Shown piece by piece: positions 17,885 through 29,582 of a stretch of DNA of 64,000 nt. Every line of letters begins with the position of its first letter. The first letter of the stretch is position 1. The translations under genes were made by a program, and so were the position numbers. Below the pieces are notes generated by a model. It made no database searches and had not been told where the DNA came from. It saw only the letters and a list, made by a program, of their open reading frames with translations. The DNA is from Chitinophagales bacterium (GTDB taxonomy: Bacteria; Bacteroidota; Bacteroidia; Chitinophagales; LD1), in the NCBI GenBank assembly GCA_016786765.1, contig JAEUUZ010000003.1:248001-312000 (forward strand), written 5' to 3'.

Positions 17885-19627
17885 ATGGCAGAACAATTTA
17901 CAAACAATACAACAAATCCTGTTAAGCGTTTTTACAGCTATCTCATGCTGGAGCGCAATGAGATTCTGTATATCTATTTTTATGCTGCTTTGAGTGGTCT
18001 GCTTTATCTTTCTTTACCGTTAGGTATACAAGCCATTGTCTCTTTTTTGTTTGGCGGTTTAGTGTCTACTTCCCTTATTATTCTGATTTTACTGGTTGTT
18101 GCCGGTGTGGCCCTTAATGGCTATCTGCAAATTTTGCAAATGAAAGTCACAGAGCGTATTCAACGCAAGTTGTTTACTCGTTTTGCTTTAGCTTTTTCTG
18201 AACGATTCCCCCGATTGAAATTAGAAGCCGTAGATGATTATTATTTACCTGAATTAGTGAATCGGTTTTTTGATACCTCTTCTCTTCAGAAAGGCATTTC
18301 AAAAATATTGTTGGACTTACCTTCTGCAAGTATTCAAATTTTATTTGGATTGATATTGTTATCGCTTTACAGTCCGTTGTTTATTGCTTTCGGTTTATTA
18401 TTAGTGTTTTTGTTGTATTTAATTTTCCGTTTCACTGCACCTGCAGGTATTTCTTCCAGTATTTTAGAGTCAGATTATAAATATCAAGTGGGACACTGGT
18501 TGGAAGAAATCGCTCGAAATGTCAAAACCTTCAAGCTGTCAGGGAATACAGACATCGCCATAAACAAAACCGATGAATTAGTGAGCGGTTACTTAGATGC
18601 CCGAAAGCATCACTTCAAGATACTTCTTACTCAGTATTGGTCGTTTGTGGCCTTTAAAACCATAATAACAGCAGCCTTGCTAATTGCTGGTTCTTTACTC
18701 TTTGTTCAGCAACAAATTAATATCGGACAGTTTGTAGCTTCAGAAATTATTATTCTCACTATTCTCAATTCCGTTGAAAAAATCATTACCGGGTTAGAGG
18801 GGATCTATGATATTTTAACCTCTTTAGAAAAAATTGGAAAGGTGCTCGATAAGCCGGTAGAGGAAGATGTAGCCGGTGCGGTGATTGCTGAAGAAACTCC
18901 GTTTAATGTTTCAATGCAAGATGTTTCTTTTGCTTATCCCGATGCCAAAACAAATGTGTTAGAAGGATTAACCTTAGACATTTTACCGGGAGAAAAAGTG
19001 GCCATTTGCGGAACAAAAGATTCCGGAAAATCATCTTTGATTAAGTTGTTTACCGGTATGTACGAGAATTATACCGGAAGTATTCTAATTAACGAAATGC
19101 CCATTTCTTCATATGATTTGAAGTCGTTGCGCGATAAAATTGGCGTCTATTTTTCACGTACCGAAATCTTTGAAGGTACCTTATTCGAAAATCTAACATT
19201 GTTGCGTACGGGCATAACAGAAGAGCACATCATTCCTGTTGCCAAAGCCGTGGGTTTGTTAGAGTATATACAATCGCACAGGTTAGGTCTACACCAAACA
19301 TTAGATACGCATGGACGTAAATTGCCGGAAAGTGTAAAGGCTAAAATTTTATTGTGCCGCGCATTGCTCAAACAGCCAAAGTTGTTGCTAATAGACGATT
19401 TTAGACACCATTTAGAATACAATGAACAAATGGCGGTTGCCCAATATCTAACAGATAGTAGTCGAAAATACAGTTTAATTATTCGTACATCAGACGAGAA
19501 ACTTATGCAACAATGCAGTAAAGTGATTTTAATGCATGGAGGAAAAATTGCTGCAATTGGACCTTACCAAAAAGTAAAGGAGACTTCTGTTTACAAGGCA
19601 TACACAAGCAATAAAAACAGTAATTAG
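17885..19627 (+). CDS. ABC exporter half-transporter with degenerate ATPase motifs
   Basis: 580 residues: a membrane domain with about six helices (25-330) and a nucleotide-binding domain (345-575), as in HlyB/MsbA-type exporters without a peptidase domain. Walker A is intact (376-384, GTKDSGKSS, K382). The other motifs are altered: the Q-loop Gln is replaced by Ser424 (VYFSRTEIF), the LSGGQ signature reads LPESV (480-484), the Walker B Glu is Asp505 (LLLIDD), and the H-loop His is Thr535 (IIRTSDEK). ATP binding looks possible but hydrolysis by the usual mechanism is doubtful. The HlyD-like gene starts 1 base after its stop and a TolC-like gene follows, so it belongs to a three-part type I secretion-like system. 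The substrate is unknown. Confidence 0.88.
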   Translation: MAEQFTNNTTNPVKRFYSYLMLERNEILYIYFYAALSGLLYLSLPLGIQAIVSFLFGGLVSTSLIILILLVVAGVALNGYLQILQMKVTERIQRKLFTRFALAFSERFPRLKLEAVDDYYLPELVNRFFDTSSLQKGISKILLDLPSASIQILFGLILLSLYSPLFIAFGLLLVFLLYLIFRFTAPAGISSSILESDYKYQVGHWLEEIARNVKTFKLSGNTDIAINKTDELVSGYLDARKHHFKILLTQYWSFVAFKTIITAALLIAGSLLFVQQQINIGQFVASEIIILTILNSVEKIITGLEGIYDILTSLEKIGKVLDKPVEEDVAGAVIAEETPFNVSMQDVSFAYPDAKTNVLEGLTLDILPGEKVAICGTKDSGKSSLIKLFTGMYENYTGSILINEMPISSYDLKSLRDKIGVYFSRTEIFEGTLFENLTLLRTGITEEHIIPVAKAVGLLEYIQSHRLGLHQTLDTHGRKLPESVKAKILLCRALLKQPKLLLIDDFRHHLEYNEQMAVAQYLTDSSRKYSLIIRTSDEKLMQQCSKVILMHGGKIAAIGPYQKVKETSVYKAYTSNKNSN

Positions 19628-19628
19628 T

Positions 19629-20993
19629 ATGTGGTTAACAAACAACGAAATGCAACATAGTTTGGATCGAAAGCGATTAAAGTCGCTTGAAAAGTCGTTT
19701 GGCGAAACCACCGATATAAAATTGGTACGTCAATTTGGTTTTATCTTGATTCTATTGTTAGTCTTCTTGCTTTTACCCTGGACACAAAATATTAAGTCGG
19801 GAGGCAAGGTAACAACACTTCGTCCGGAGCAACGACCACAAGAACTCAATGCACTAATTGCCGGCCGAATTGAAAAATGGTACGTAAAAGAAGGCGACAT
19901 TGTAAAAGCCGGAGATACTATTTTGCGCATATCGGAAATTAAATCGGAGTATTTGGATCCTGCATTAATGGATAGAACTGAAGAGCAAATTCAATCCAAA
20001 ATTGACGCCAATAATTTGTACGATAACAAAGCCGGAGCATTAATGCATCAAATTGCCGCTCTCGAACAAGCGCGTGCACTAAAAATCGAACAACTCAAAA
20101 ACAAAGTAAAGCAAGCGCAACTTTACATCGTGTCCGACAGTATGGCCATGCAAGCAGCCGGTAATCAACTTAACATTGCTAAAGAGCAATTCAAGCGACA
20201 AAAAGAATTGTACGATGCCGGTTTGAAATCGTTAACCGAGTTGGAACAACGCAATCAAGCGCTACAAGATGCCAATGCACGTAAGACCATTGCCGAAAAC
20301 AAATACTACAACACCAAGAACGACTTACTAAACGCTATGATTGAGTTACAAAGCACCAATCGCGATTACGAGGAGAAAATTGCCAAAGCCGAAGCTGAAC
20401 GATTTCAGTCGCTTTCACAAGTCTCAAGTGGTACTGCCGATGTTGCAAAGCTTCAGAATCAGTTTTCCAATTATAAAATTCGTAACGGCTTTTATTTGAT
20501 TACTGCTCCGCAAGACGGACAAATTACCAAAACCGTAAAAGCCGGTATTGGCGAGAGTGTAAAGGAAGGGGATTTGTTGGTAAGTATAACTCCGCAACAC
20601 TACGATATTGCTGTAGAAATTTATGTTACACCCAACGATTTACCATTGGTACACAAAGGCGAAAAAGTGCGTTTGCAATTTGATGGATTTCCTGCTATTG
20701 TGTTTACCGGTTGGCCGAACGCTTCATACGGAACGTTTGGTGGCATCATCACAGCTGTAGATAATAACATTAGCGTAGGCGGTAAATTCCGCATTCTAGT
20801 AGCTGAAGATAAAGCCGAAAAGCCATGGCCAAAGAATTTGCGGTTAGGTGGTGGAGTAGAAGGAATGGCGCTTTTGAAAGATGTGCCTATTTGGTACGAA
20901 TTGTGGCGAAACATTAATGGCTTCCCGGCCGACTATTATGCAGGCAAGGAAGATACTAAAGCAAAAGCAAAGAAATCCGATGCAGAAAAGTAA
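19629..20993 (+). CDS. HlyD-family membrane fusion protein
   Basis: 454 residues. One N-terminal transmembrane helix (about 34-53, FILILLLVFLLLPW), then a lipoyl-like half (ALIAGRIEKWYVKEGDIVKAGDTIL), a long coiled-coil hairpin (about 110-270, Gln/Lys/Glu-rich), the second lipoyl half (YLITAPQDGQITKTVKAG) and a beta-barrel domain (VEIYVTPNDLPLVHKGEKVRL). It would bridge the ABC protein in the inner membrane and the TolC-like channel. Translation is probably coupled to both: 1 base after the ABC gene's stop, and its own last codons overlap the start of the next gene. An internal Met at 19650 is an alternative start. Confidence 0.9.
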   Translation: MWLTNNEMQHSLDRKRLKSLEKSFGETTDIKLVRQFGFILILLLVFLLLPWTQNIKSGGKVTTLRPEQRPQELNALIAGRIEKWYVKEGDIVKAGDTILRISEIKSEYLDPALMDRTEEQIQSKIDANNLYDNKAGALMHQIAALEQARALKIEQLKNKVKQAQLYIVSDSMAMQAAGNQLNIAKEQFKRQKELYDAGLKSLTELEQRNQALQDANARKTIAENKYYNTKNDLLNAMIELQSTNRDYEEKIAKAEAERFQSLSQVSSGTADVAKLQNQFSNYKIRNGFYLITAPQDGQITKTVKAGIGESVKEGDLLVSITPQHYDIAVEIYVTPNDLPLVHKGEKVRLQFDGFPAIVFTGWPNASYGTFGGIITAVDNNISVGGKFRILVAEDKAEKPWPKNLRLGGGVEGMALLKDVPIWYELWRNINGFPADYYAGKEDTKAKAKKSDAEK

Positions 20994-22446
20994 ACTACAT
21001 CAGGTTCTATGCGCACTGTTTATGCCAACATTTCGATTTAAGTGGTACATGGCAACACTTTGCTTGTTGTTGAATAACAGCAGTTTTGCACAAAGCGATT
21101 CGTTGCGAACCTTTACCTTGGCTGAATTTCTGACCATCGTTAAAACCTATCATCCTTTAGCCAAGCAAGCCGATATTGTGACCGACAAAGCCAAGGCGGA
21201 ACTATTAATTGCACGCGGAGGTTTTGATCCCATGTTGTATTCCGATTACGATCGAAAAGTGTTTTACGGCAATAACTACTATTCCTTTTTTAGTTCCGAA
21301 ATTAAAATACCCGGATGGTATGGGATTGAAGTGAAAGCCGGATACGACTATTCGTATGGTTCGAACATTAACCCTTCTGATTTTATTCCGAAAACGGGTC
21401 TGGCCTACGTAGGTGTTTCTGTGCCTTTATTGAAAGGGTTGTTTACCGACAAGAAACGAGCCGATTTGCAAAAAGCAAAATTGTTTGTGTCGGCTTCTGA
21501 ACAACAACGCATTTTAATGTTGAACGACTTGCTGTTGGATGCGGTGAAAGGATACTATGAATGGACGTTGGCCTACCGAAATAAGCGAATTATCGAAGAA
21601 GCCTTGCTGCTTTCACAACAACGTTTTGCTGCCACAACACAAGCTACTCTTTTAGGCGATAGGGCACCCATAGATTCTACCGAAGCTATGGCCCAATATC
21701 AAACACGACAATATGAATTCAATCAGGCGAATCTCGATTTTCAAAAAGCGAGTTTTGAGTTGTCGAATTTTTTGTGGACGCAAAACGAACAGCCTTATTT
21801 GTTGCCTAATGGCGTAGTGCCGGAATTCAATGATGCTGCTGTTTTTGCCCAAAGCGTAAAACTGAAACCGTTAACAGAACTAGAGCAAACTATTCAAACT
21901 ACTCACCCTAATGTGTTGATGTATCAATTGAAGGTAAAGCAGTTGGAGGTGGAACGCAAACTCAAAATCGAAAACCTGAAACCCACGCTCAACGCCAGTT
22001 ATAACCTGCTGAGTAAAGATGTTTCCACTTGGAGTAACCCAGAATGGTCTATGTTTAAAGACTATTACAAGTTTGGGGTGAAGTTCAGCATGCCGCTTAC
22101 TTTTGCACAAGGACGAGGCGATGTGCGTATCGCTAATCTTAAAATCCGCGAAGCGAAATATGATTTGGAGCTCAAGCGTAATGAGCTCAACAATAAGCTA
22201 CGCAGCTATTATACAGAATTGGTTGTGCTTAAAGACCAAGTCAACTTATACAAAGCCACTGTTACCAATTACGAGAAGTTGTACACCGGAGAAGTGATGC
22301 GTTTCAATGCCGGAGAAAGCAATGTGTTTTTGGTAAATACCCGCGAAAATAAATGGCTCGAAGCCCAACAAAAATTAGCTGAAGTACAACTCAAGTATTT
22401 CAAAGCCGAAGCAGCACTCAAATGGGTGATGATGCAGTTGAATTAA
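20980..22446 (+). CDS. TolC-family outer-membrane efflux protein
   Basis: 488 residues from the ATG at 20980, which overlaps the end of the HlyD-like gene by 14 bases; ATGs at 21022 and 21049 would shorten the signal region (MATLCLLLNNSSFAQ). The mature protein starts with the TolC-type helix TLAEFLTIVKTYHPLAKQADI, has paired long amphipathic helices and two short strand regions (GIEVKAGYDYSYG, FGVKFSMPLTFAQGRGD), and ends in a long helix (AGESNVFLVNTRENKWLEAQ). It forms the outer-membrane channel of the three-gene exporter. It is the last gene of the operon; the convergent permease gene ends 16 bases away without an obvious hairpin between. Confidence 0.88.
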   Translation: MQKSKLHQVLCALFMPTFRFKWYMATLCLLLNNSSFAQSDSLRTFTLAEFLTIVKTYHPLAKQADIVTDKAKAELLIARGGFDPMLYSDYDRKVFYGNNYYSFFSSEIKIPGWYGIEVKAGYDYSYGSNINPSDFIPKTGLAYVGVSVPLLKGLFTDKKRADLQKAKLFVSASEQQRILMLNDLLLDAVKGYYEWTLAYRNKRIIEEALLLSQQRFAATTQATLLGDRAPIDSTEAMAQYQTRQYEFNQANLDFQKASFELSNFLWTQNEQPYLLPNGVVPEFNDAAVFAQSVKLKPLTELEQTIQTTHPNVLMYQLKVKQLEVERKLKIENLKPTLNASYNLLSKDVSTWSNPEWSMFKDYYKFGVKFSMPLTFAQGRGDVRIANLKIREAKYDLELKRNELNNKLRSYYTELVVLKDQVNLYKATVTNYEKLYTGEVMRFNAGESNVFLVNTRENKWLEAQQKLAEVQLKYFKAEAALKWVMMQLN

Positions 22447-26054: not shown

Positions 26055-29000
26055 TTATTGTTTCATTACTTTAGCCACCATTGTTCCTTGTTGTGTGGTG
26101 ATTCGAACGTAATAAAAACCGGAAGCAAGTTCTGCTGTGTTTAACGTCATTACTTCCTCCTTCACGTTTTCATAACTGTTGTGTAATAGCACTTGTCCGC
26201 TGATGTTCACTATGTCAACAGTAATGTTTTCGGCCGTGTTGCAAGTGATTGCTAAGTTCAAAATGTTTTCAGTTGGATTAGGATAAATATCCAACTTGCC
26301 AATATTCTCAACAAGCGCAATGCCTATAGTACTTCCAACGGAAATAGCTTGTAGTGCCGTACAACCACTTTGATCGGTCACGGTAACTATATATTGTCCG
26401 GAATTCAAACCTGTAGCGGTTTGTGTTGTTTGTCCGTTGCTCCAAGTATATGTGTACGGACTAACACCGCCTATTGCAGTTACTGTAGCGGTTCCATTGT
26501 TTGTAAGATTTGTGGTAGCGGTGCTTGTTGCAGTTACGGTAAGTAATGAACTTCCGGCAACAGTAAAATTGCCCGTAGCCGAACAACCATTCGAAACGGC
26601 TGTAACGGTGTATGTGCCGGCCGACAAGTTCGTAATGGCCGGTGTTGTAGCGCCAGTGTTCCATATATAGGTATAGGTGCTTCCTCCACTCGCAGTTACT
26701 GTTACTGAACCATTGTTTTTACCACATGAAGTGCTTGTTCCGGTTGTGTTTACAGAAATGCCGTTTGGAGCAGTAACCGTGTAGCTTGCAGAAGCACTGC
26801 AACCATTTGAAAAAGCGGTAACAGTGTAGTTGCCCGTTCCCAATCCGCTGATCGTAGCTGTTGTTCCTCCATTGCTCCATGCATAGGTATAGGTCAACCC
26901 TCCTGATCCTGCAGCAGATGCAGTTCCGTCTGTAGCTGTGCAAGAAGAAGTAGCTGTTCCGGCTGTTGAAACCGCAATACCAAAACTACCTGTAATCGTT
27001 TGAGTAGCTGTGGCTGTGCATAACCCTGAAGTAACGGTAACATCGTAGGTGCCCGGTGCCAATCCGTTAATGTTGGCAGTAGTTTCCCCGTTGCTCCAAG
27101 CATAAGTGTATGCCGAACCTCCTGAAGCAGTAACAAGAGCAGTACCATTGGTAAATCCGCATGTGGTATTATTTCCTGAGGTGGAGGCGGTAATTCCATT
27201 TGGTGAAGTAACAGTATAAGATGCAGTAGCACTACAGCCATTAGAGAGTACTGTTACCGTGTAGACTCCGTCTTGAAGTCCTGTGATAGCAGCTGTTGTA
27301 GCTCCGTTGCTCCATGTGAAGGTGTAATTTGAACCACCTGCAGGAGTAGCGGTTGCTGTTCCATCGTTGGTGCCACAACCTGTTGCAGGGGTTCCTGAAG
27401 CCGTTGCTGTGATACCATTTGGGGCTGTTACTGTATAACTTGCCGTGGCGCTACAACCATTCGACAAAACGGTTACCGTATAGGTGCCGGCTTGAAGTCC
27501 TGTAATAGCTTGCGATGTGCCCCCATTGCTCCAAGTATAGGTGTAGTTGGATCCACCACTCGGTAGTACTGCTGCTGCTCCATCGTTCGTGCCACAGCCT
27601 GTTGCCGCAGTTCCATTCGCAGAAGCTGTGATGCCATTCGGAGCTGTAACCGTGTACGATGCAGAGGCGCTGCAACCATTCGATAACGCGGTTACGGTAT
27701 AGGTGCCGGCTTGAAGTCCAGTAATGGTTTGTGATGTAGCTCCATTGCTCCAAGTATAGGTGTAGGTTGTTCCACCGGAAGGATTAGCGGTTGCTGTTCC
27801 ATCGTTCGTGCCGCAGCCTGTTGCCGCAGTACCTGTTGCCGTTGTGCTGATATTTCCGGATGAAGTTACTACTCTGCTAGCCGAAACGGAGCAGCCATTT
27901 GATGTTACGGTTACGGTATAGGTGCCGGCCGAAAGACCTGAAATTGTTGCCGTTGAGCCGCCATTGCTCCATGCATACGCATAGGTTGTTCCACCTGAAG
28001 GCGTTGCCGTTGCTGTTCCGTTGCTTTGTCCGCAAGTAGCCGCATTCCCTGAAGTGGTTGCTGTTATTCCGTTTGGTGCACTCACAGTAAAGGTTGCCGT
28101 TGCAGTACAGCTGTTCGAAGTTACGGTTACCGTGTAATTGCCTGATGATAGACCGGTAATGCTTGCTGTTGTTCCACCATTGCTCCAAGCGTAGGTATAG
28201 GTTGTTCCTCCGGCAGGCGTAGCAGTGGCAGTTCCATCGTTGGTGCCGCACGCTGAAGTTGCAGTGCCTGTGGCCGTTGCAGTAATGCCTGTGCTGGTGG
28301 CAACTGTTCTTGTTGCCGTTACGGTACATGTGCCTGACGTAACTGTTACGGTGTATGTTCCGGCTGCTAAGCCTGTGATAGTAGCCGTTGTGCCACTGTT
28401 ACTCCAAGCATAAGTGTAGGTTGTTCCGCCTGAGGGCGAAACGGTTGCGGTACCGTTGTTCTGGCCGCAAGTAGTACCATTGCCCGAAGTGGTTGCGGTA
28501 AGATTACATGCGCTTGTACAAGCAGTTAATTGACTGTTCAATAACGAAGATCTTCCTGCATAGGGATTGCCATTAACTGTTATTGGTGTGCCTTGTACTA
28601 CATTGCGCATAACGTTCACTTGTCCGGTTGTAAATGTGGAGTAGCAGGCATCATCGTCTATGTAATCCATATAGTCGCAATACATAGATTGTACACCACT
28701 ACACGATGTAGGAGGCACACCGCTCGAGCACGAAAAACTCGTGTTGCTGGAAGTGGGTCCTTGTTGGAGTGGTGTGTCTGCAATGCCGTCATCATCAGTA
28801 CATACGTGATTACTAGGAGTTTCTCCCCAAGTATGCGGTAAGCCCAAATAGTGCCCGGTTTCATGCGTTAAAGCTCTGCAATCGCCCGATACCCCTGAAA
28901 AAGACGGAGATCCAAACCAACGGTAGTCAATAACAACCCCATCTACATCTGATCCTACCGCCCCAAATGTTGGCAAATAGGCATAGCCCAAGGTTCCACC

Positions 29001-29582
29001 AAAGGCATTTGTGCCGGGGATGGCCAACGTCCAAATGTTTAAATATTTTGTGGCATCCCAAGTTGTTAGTGGCTTAATATTGGTTTCTATGTCGTTAGTG
29101 CTGACAGGATTTGCAAATACTTGTCGGTCAATCCCCGTTGTTGTATTGCCATTGGGGTCTTTGGTGGCCAAGCAAAACTGAATTTCAGGGGTGCCTCTTA
29201 AACTTTGAAATACAGCAGGCGTTCCTGATGTCCAATTGGGGTTTTGCGACATGTAATCTCTGTTGAGAATTTGGATTTGGGCTTGAACCCTTGCATCGGT
29301 TAAGTTTCGGCCCGTACCCACAGCTTCAGTCGAAAGGTGAATAACGTGAACAACAACCGGAATGGTTAAAATAGAAGCTCTTCCGGCCGAGCGATGCGTG
29401 GAATAATATTGAATCACCTGTTTGAAATCGCTAAGCTCTTGTGCATACTGCGGATGCGTTAAACTATAGTTATATTCTACCTCATTCATTGCGCATTTTT
29501 CATTGGGAACATAACTGATTTGCGCTTGACTGAATTGAATAAGCATTGTGAACAGTACTAACGGTAAAAACTTCTTACACAT
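26055..29582 (-). CDS. M43 (pappalysin/cytophagalysin-type) metalloprotease with ten SprB-like repeats and T9SS domain
   Basis: 1175 residues. Signal peptide (FLPLVLFTMLIQFSQAQ), propeptide-like segment with ILTIPVVVHVIH, then the zinc metalloprotease domain with HETGHYLGLPH (H240, E241, H244, H250) and Met-turn region MDYIDDDACYSTF; this is the extended zinc motif of peptidase family M43. Residues about 358-1082 are ten consecutive ~73-residue SprB-like repeats (CG..NGTATATPSGG..YTYAWSNG.T...I.GL..GTYTVTV.SNGC). A T9SS sorting domain closes the protein (IYPNPTENILNL ... GFYYVRI). A secreted protease on a long repetitive stalk, probably at the cell surface. Single gene. Confidence 0.93.
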   Translation of the reverse strand: MCKKFLPLVLFTMLIQFSQAQISYVPNEKCAMNEVEYNYSLTHPQYAQELSDFKQVIQYYSTHRSAGRASILTIPVVVHVIHLSTEAVGTGRNLTDARVQAQIQILNRDYMSQNPNWTSGTPAVFQSLRGTPEIQFCLATKDPNGNTTTGIDRQVFANPVSTNDIETNIKPLTTWDATKYLNIWTLAIPGTNAFGGTLGYAYLPTFGAVGSDVDGVVIDYRWFGSPSFSGVSGDCRALTHETGHYLGLPHTWGETPSNHVCTDDDGIADTPLQQGPTSSNTSFSCSSGVPPTSCSGVQSMYCDYMDYIDDDACYSTFTTGQVNVMRNVVQGTPITVNGNPYAGRSSLLNSQLTACTSACNLTATTSGNGTTCGQNNGTATVSPSGGTTYTYAWSNSGTTATITGLAAGTYTVTVTSGTCTVTATRTVATSTGITATATGTATSACGTNDGTATATPAGGTTYTYAWSNGGTTASITGLSSGNYTVTVTSNSCTATATFTVSAPNGITATTSGNAATCGQSNGTATATPSGGTTYAYAWSNGGSTATISGLSAGTYTVTVTSNGCSVSASRVVTSSGNISTTATGTAATGCGTNDGTATANPSGGTTYTYTWSNGATSQTITGLQAGTYTVTALSNGCSASASYTVTAPNGITASANGTAATGCGTNDGAAAVLPSGGSNYTYTWSNGGTSQAITGLQAGTYTVTVLSNGCSATASYTVTAPNGITATASGTPATGCGTNDGTATATPAGGSNYTFTWSNGATTAAITGLQDGVYTVTVLSNGCSATASYTVTSPNGITASTSGNNTTCGFTNGTALVTASGGSAYTYAWSNGETTANINGLAPGTYDVTVTSGLCTATATQTITGSFGIAVSTAGTATSSCTATDGTASAAGSGGLTYTYAWSNGGTTATISGLGTGNYTVTAFSNGCSASASYTVTAPNGISVNTTGTSTSCGKNNGSVTVTASGGSTYTYIWNTGATTPAITNLSAGTYTVTAVSNGCSATGNFTVAGSSLLTVTATSTATTNLTNNGTATVTAIGGVSPYTYTWSNGQTTQTATGLNSGQYIVTVTDQSGCTALQAISVGSTIGIALVENIGKLDIYPNPTENILNLAITCNTAENITVDIVNISGQVLLHNSYENVKEEVMTLNTAELASGFYYVRITTQQGTMVAKVMKQ
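26335..28515 (-). repeat. Ten tandem ~219-bp coding repeats (SprB-like)
   Basis: The repeat array inside the metalloprotease gene. Units are about 72-74 codons long, each with a central YTYAWSNG-type core and a Cys near the start and one near the end. Neighbouring units 4-6 are the most alike, as expected from recent internal duplication. Long antisense frames rich in Val arise from the Thr/Ala-rich code and are not genes. Confidence 0.9.

Follow-up and report, generated by a model that had tools for sequence, protein, structure and literature searches.

A TMD-HlyD-TolC exporter family of Bacteroidota in which ATP hydrolysis by the exporter's own nucleotide-binding domain may no longer be the drive

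Half-size ABC exporters that work with a HlyD-type adaptor and a TolC-type factor are known from type I secretion of the HlyB-HlyD-TolC type. The complex of HlyB and HlyD contains six copies of each, HlyB being arranged as a trimer of dimers; two of these three dimers are described as not transport-competent (PMC9751043). The PCAT/ComA/NHLP bacteriocin exporters (TIGR03796, TIGR03797; the peptide exporters ComA, 8hf4, and PCAT1, 8vow) are a second described group. Heterodimeric exporters in which one site is degenerate are common in nature (PMC7756269). Exporter transmembrane domains (TMDs) that lack the nucleotide-binding domain (NBD) have been engineered as MsbA-MD and LmrA-MD, and proton-coupled transport is reported for them: NBD-less MsbA exports ethidium on a pH gradient, though with lower efficiency than the complete MsbA (PMC4979069), and proton-coupled (ion-coupled) transport is described for LmrA (PMC2704374). 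These reports of ion-driven transport are one group's papers. We found no natural NBD-less exporter family of such a kind in the open-access papers searched.

The window (the whole stretch of 64,000 nucleotides from a Chitinophagales bacterium that was analysed) carries the three genes of a type I secretion-like operon, ABC exporter, HlyD adaptor and TolC-like factor, as intact and closely coupled ORFs (Table 1). The HlyD-like frame starts one base past the ABC stop, and the TolC-like frame, in its most likely version, overlaps the end of HlyD; a longer version runs from 20881. The exporter TMD is recognized by Pfam ABC_membrane (5.9e-14). The AF2 model of the 580-residue exporter has a mean pLDDT of 89, and its best PDB matches are TM287/288, ABCB1, MsbA, PCAT1 and HlyB, with Z of about 30-32 over ~560 residues. 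Apart from this operon, the minus strand of the window encodes a secreted-looking protein of 1175 residues (26055-29582). It has an HExxH segment like that of metalloproteases, about nine repeats similar to one another, and at its C terminus a tail resembling a type IX sorting signal.

Table 1. Features of the exporter operon, in window coordinates
Feature	Coordinates	Strand	Basis
Half-size ABC exporter, type IV/PCAT-like TMD with degenerate NBD, 580 aa	17885..19627	+	Pfam ABC_membrane and ABC_tran; AF2 model
TMD, residues 12-321, six long helices, conserved part of family	17918..18847	+	AF2 model, conservation
Lys258, TM5	18656..18658	+	alignment, TMD conservation
Glu287, TM6	18743..18745	+	alignment, TMD conservation
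Degenerate NBD, about residues 330-566	18872..19582	+	Pfam ABC_tran 69 bits
Walker A GTKDSGKSS, residues 376-384, intact	19010..19036	+	sequence, alignment
Q-loop column, Ser424 replaces Gln	19154..19156	+	alignment to canonical exporters
Signature column, LPESV (480-484) replaces LSGGQ	19322..19336	+	alignment to canonical exporters
Walker B/catalytic pair, Asp504-Asp505 replaces Asp-Glu	19394..19399	+	alignment to canonical exporters
H-loop column, Ser536 replaces His	19490..19492	+	alignment to canonical exporters
HlyD-type periplasmic adaptor, 454 aa	19629..20993	+	Pfam HlyD_3 1.8e-14
TolC-type outer-membrane factor, 487 aa from likely start	20983..22446	+	Pfam OEP 3e-38

The locus resembles each of the described systems in part. 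It shares its three-gene order with HlyB-HlyD-TolC, and HlyB (8dck) matches the fold with Z 30.2 over 567 residues. However, the catalytic motifs of the NBD, or the whole NBD, are lost in the family, the window protein is without a C39-like domain, no conserved substrate gene accompanies the operon, and a TetR gene lies near about half of the loci. By profile search the TMD is closest to ComA (1.6e-10) and then to PCAT1 (7e-5), and the deep relatives of the window family score best with TIGR03797; unlike the PCAT/ComA/NHLP exporters, the family has no peptidase domain and a seemingly dead NBD, and its scores fall far below the curated cut-offs. The heterodimers with a single degenerate site (TM287/288, MsRv1273c/72c, TAP) also tolerate degenerate NBD motifs and are the top structural matches (Z 31-32), but they keep one active site, whereas the window product is degenerate at every site and has relatives with no NBD at all. 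The engineered MsbA-MD and LmrA-MD are laboratory truncations, whereas the loss described here is natural, old, retained together with an adaptor and an outer-membrane factor, and known from sequence.

The motif columns of the window NBD were set by alignment with four canonical exporters from the window's own genome. Among the canonical motifs, only the Walker A and the Walker B Asp are retained. The sequence-only reading of this DNA had given the same Walker A, Ser424, LPESV and Asp505; it had placed the H-loop at Thr535, and the alignment moves the His column to Ser536. Misalignment masking standard motifs is ruled out by the joint alignment with the four canonical exporters, although in some Chitinophagaceae a Gln lies one or two positions past the Q-loop column and a one-residue shift could in principle claim it. 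A local pseudogene or a sequencing error is ruled out by the intact frames, by recurrence of the degeneracy in 148 homologues and by a dN/dS far below 1: in close pairs the NBD value is ~0.04-0.2, about two to four times looser than in the TMD. The earlier statement that the gene is not decaying thus holds.

The degenerate family is widespread. A search of 99 relatives yielded ~39 orthologues at 35-54% identity, and a search across the phylum gave members in 97 of 394 genomes. In a scan of named genomes it was present in Flavobacteriaceae, Cyclobacteriaceae, Hymenobacteraceae, Chitinophagaceae, Saprospiraceae, Sphingobacteriaceae and Marinilabiliaceae, among others. Motifs were counted in a core set of 148 distinct NBD-bearing homologues from Bacteroidota. 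Walker A is intact in 137. The Q-loop Gln is present in five, the H-loop His in one (Asn being the commonest residue there, in 71), and the signature Gly-Gly in none, with the second Gly alone in eight. At the Walker B/catalytic pair, 60 proteins have Glu-Asp, 30 have Glu-Glu and only four have the canonical Asp-Glu; at least one residue of the pair is acidic in 147. Taking six catalytic positions together, 117 of the 148 keep none or one, and the canonical controls keep five or six. The alignment of Bacteroidota orthologues that had been proposed as a check has been made, and the degenerate pattern recurs throughout it; the suggestions that both ATP sites of the homodimer are degenerate and that the energetics are unusual are both strengthened, the second also by the two lineages without any NBD described below.

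These counts bear on whether the homodimer might be an unorthodox ATPase, hydrolysing ATP slowly with substitutes (Glu-Asp for Asp-Glu, Asn for the H-loop His), so that the NBD-bearing species would still be ATP-driven. The frequencies of intact Walker A, of an acidic residue in the Walker B pair and of Asn at the H-loop all speak for such an enzyme, as does purifying selection on the NBD, but every core protein lacks the Gly-Gly of the signature, which closes the ATP sandwich. The NBD has, moreover, been deleted twice with the operon left in place, and an NBD-bearing lineage beside the NBD-less clade has also lost the Mg2+-binding Ser/Thr. We consider a slow ATPase of this sort improbable. 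That the family's own NBD carries out no canonical ATP hydrolysis is, from the motif counts, probable.

Standard motifs in the same operon were sought as the case that would turn the degeneracy into a local loss. They were approached only in 19 deep relatives from other classes of the phylum, which are near-canonical (Asp-Glu in 18 of 19, His at the H-loop in 14 and the second Gly of the signature also in 14) and, where checked, mostly have the same operon arrangement. Near-canonical orthologues thus do exist, but they mark an old transition and not a local loss. The core joins the group of deep relatives by a long branch, and together with their near-canonical motifs this makes active ATPase to dead ATPase the likely direction of change; an ancient degeneration from an active ATPase, within Bacteroidia, is the likely history. 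L095, L103 and other deep relatives, as well as L108-L113, have an N-terminal domain of ~150-250 residues ahead of the TMD, at the position of the C39 or C39-like domain of related exporters; it is not recognized by Pfam and has been lost in most of the core. In members of family f21 (L030, L032, L034) that carry an N-terminal extension, Walker A itself is altered (KATGGAGKTT, RTGNQPGKTT).

The NBD is absent altogether in two lineages: one has a stand-alone TMD and spans three families, and the other, in the family to which the window belongs, has a fusion of TMD and HlyD. TMD-only ORFs (~335 aa, mostly 334-370 aa) occur at 40 places in the 201 genomes searched of one family and at 52 places in the 150 genomes searched of a second (92 places over both). 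At the 22 loci read, which cover three families, the TMD-only gene encodes 332-347 aa, a HlyD match starts within ~150 bases after it in every case, and TolC comes next wherever the flank sufficed. Counted over NBD-less loci with enough flank, HlyD and TolC follow in 18 of 18. No NBD fragments lie 3' of the TMD-only genes in the loci read. The three families are Sphingobacteriaceae (f23, which contains Mucilaginibacter rigui), a large-genome family (f30) and, by tree position, probably Hymenobacteraceae (f29). Two further short ORFs were left out of the counts, one (in G617) cut by a contig end and the other (in G622) with no HlyD nearby. The fusion is a single chain of ~760-780 aa with no NBD between its parts and with TolC adjoining, and was seen in two species. 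The two fusion proteins are 89% identical and lie on contigs of 241-254 kb; at the cut-off used, no match to them was found in the other five genomes of the fusion genus.

A tree built from 70 TMDs calls for exactly two NBD losses. The TMD-only proteins form one clade (SH-aLRT 100) nested within NBD-bearing proteins; the trees were quick ones with SH-aLRT, and the fusion branch is long and its exact position uncertain, yet it stands apart from the TMD-only clade in both. The genus g265 was considered as a third independent loss (47-50% identity), but the tree places it inside the TMD-only clade. Its TMD-only copies group with copies from another family, which suggests transfer between families. 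One g265 genome, G735 (L216, L217, L234), and others of the genus show that TMD-only and NBD-bearing paralogues can share one genome. In the nearest NBD-bearing relatives of the TMD-only clade, the Walker A Ser/Thr that binds Mg2+ is lost (GKNT, GKET, GKHT or GKDT in place of GKST). With this damaged Walker A next to the TMD-only clade, the family forms a series from near-canonical motifs to Walker A only, to a failing Walker A, to no NBD.

The same findings limit a role for nucleotide in gating. ATP binding without hydrolysis could gate a passive TMD conduit, making the protein a nucleotide-gated channel or sensor of which the NBD-less members would be constitutive forms. Walker A is indeed kept where the hydrolytic residues are gone, and the sequence of the NBD is constrained, but the NBD-bearing lineage beside the NBD-less clade is without the Mg2+ ligand. 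Since NBD-less members persist, gating of this type cannot be general. The sequence-only reading had offered a nucleotide-gated channel or an assembly platform; either may hold for NBD-bearing members, but gating as the general mode does not stand, and we give it little credit as an account of the family. Nucleotide may still matter in the members that have an NBD, Walker A and the domain as a whole being under purifying selection.

The sequence-only reading had suggested pairing with another ATPase. The partner of the degenerate half could be an active ABC half-exporter whose gene lies elsewhere, as the frequency of natural exporters with one degenerate site would allow (PMC7756269). Neighbourhoods were compared at about 109 loci. 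Only three neighbours recur widely: HlyD and TolC downstream (TolC as a following gene in 103) and a TetR-type regulator, found at 58 loci, about half, and usually just upstream. The window operon itself has no adjoining TetR gene. A canonical ABC exporter gene lies nearby, on the upstream side, in two of the neighbourhoods (L047 3731-5518; L126 3635-5452), but in only these two, so that a partner ATPase gene is as a rule absent from the operon. Nor was an orphan NBD of the family found in the NBD-less genomes searched: the best NBD matches there reach 24-33% identity and all lie within full-size exporters of about 580-640 aa. A partner, furthermore, could not use the signature that is missing from the window protein. 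Pairing of this kind, which might still involve an unlinked full-size partner, is, on these results, very improbable.

The conservation of the family is concentrated in the TMD. Core pairs average 0.54 identity over the TMD against 0.33 over the NBD, and each of the 10,878 pairs shows lower identity in the NBD than in the TMD; in three canonical pairs the order is reversed. Two charged residues within the TMD, Lys258 and Glu287, are invariant in character. Position 258 is Lys or Arg in 148 of 148 core members and in the TMD-only forms and fusions examined; position 287 is Glu or Asp in 148 of 148 and Glu in all NBD-less forms examined. Both positions are uncharged in the four canonical controls. 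At the position of Lys258 ComA has His and PCAT1 has Val, and at that of Glu287 both have Asn. In the fusions, loss of conserved residues is concentrated by the coupling helices, the place for an NBD to dock (7 of 9 in that region and 3 of 43 outside it; Fisher P about 3e-5, for a region picked after the data were seen and with rows misaligned in the NBD excluded), and Lys258 and Glu287 persist. In the TMD-only clade, Arg211 of coupling helix 2 is lost and Pro109, Glu123 and Arg127 of helix 1 are kept, a pattern compatible with a different cytosolic domain docking there. The two membrane charges may have a part in packing or in binding substrate, and not in ion movement.

The main rival to a working exporter is an assembly platform, in which the ABC-derived domain would transport nothing and would organize HlyD and TolC, the substrate being supplied by another inner-membrane protein or by a periplasmic route. 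The six-to-six HlyB:HlyD assembly offers a precedent in its two dimers that are not transport-competent (PMC9751043), and the one-chain TMD-HlyD fusion fixes the same 1:1 ratio. No conserved substrate gene recurs in the about 109 neighbourhoods, as a platform would allow; a remotely encoded substrate would also fit this. However, one dimer is still active in the complex for which the HlyB role was described, no other transporter gene is found repeatedly beside the operon, and the conserved charges inside the TMD exceed what a scaffold should need. We regard the platform as unlikely.

The reading that we prefer is of a TMD-HlyD-TolC exporter in which ATP hydrolysis by its own NBD is no longer the drive and which is possibly ion-driven; as a whole we put it at about an even chance. 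The ancestor would have been an ATP-driven, type-I-like ABC exporter, and the operon would now encode a tripartite envelope exporter. In Bacteroidia the motor has, at the level of sequence, lost its catalytic sandwich, so that the homodimer would bind nucleotide at Walker A without hydrolysing it in the usual way. The NBD then became dispensable in two lineages. Because it was deleted twice with TMD, HlyD and TolC kept in the operon, the working part appears to be the TMD docked on the adaptor, and that these three still form a working conduit is probable. What remains of the NBD in window-type members would most likely be a nucleotide-binding regulatory or structural domain. For movement of the substrate, an ion gradient through the TMD would be the most likely drive, by analogy with MsbA and LmrA engineered to lack the NBD, and Lys258 and Glu287 would be candidates for the groups that couple the two; we hold this part tentatively, at somewhat below an even chance. 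Still more tentative is the broader proposal, drawn from the sequences compared, of a natural class of tripartite exporters in which an ABC TMD might act as a secondary-active transporter, with living intermediates leading from an active ATPase through a dead NBD to none.

ABC transporters are defined by ATP-driven transport, and arguments on whether their TMD can work without an NBD have so far drawn on MsbA and LmrA proteins truncated in the laboratory. In Bacteroidota the removal of the NBD has apparently been done twice by nature, with intermediates in living species, which makes the question directly testable with native proteins in complete operons. If the preferred reading is true, HlyD-TolC systems would gain an ABC-derived inner-membrane partner that is not powered by ATP hydrolysis. 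Many Bacteroidota genes that annotation would label as ABC transporter ATPases may not encode ATPases.
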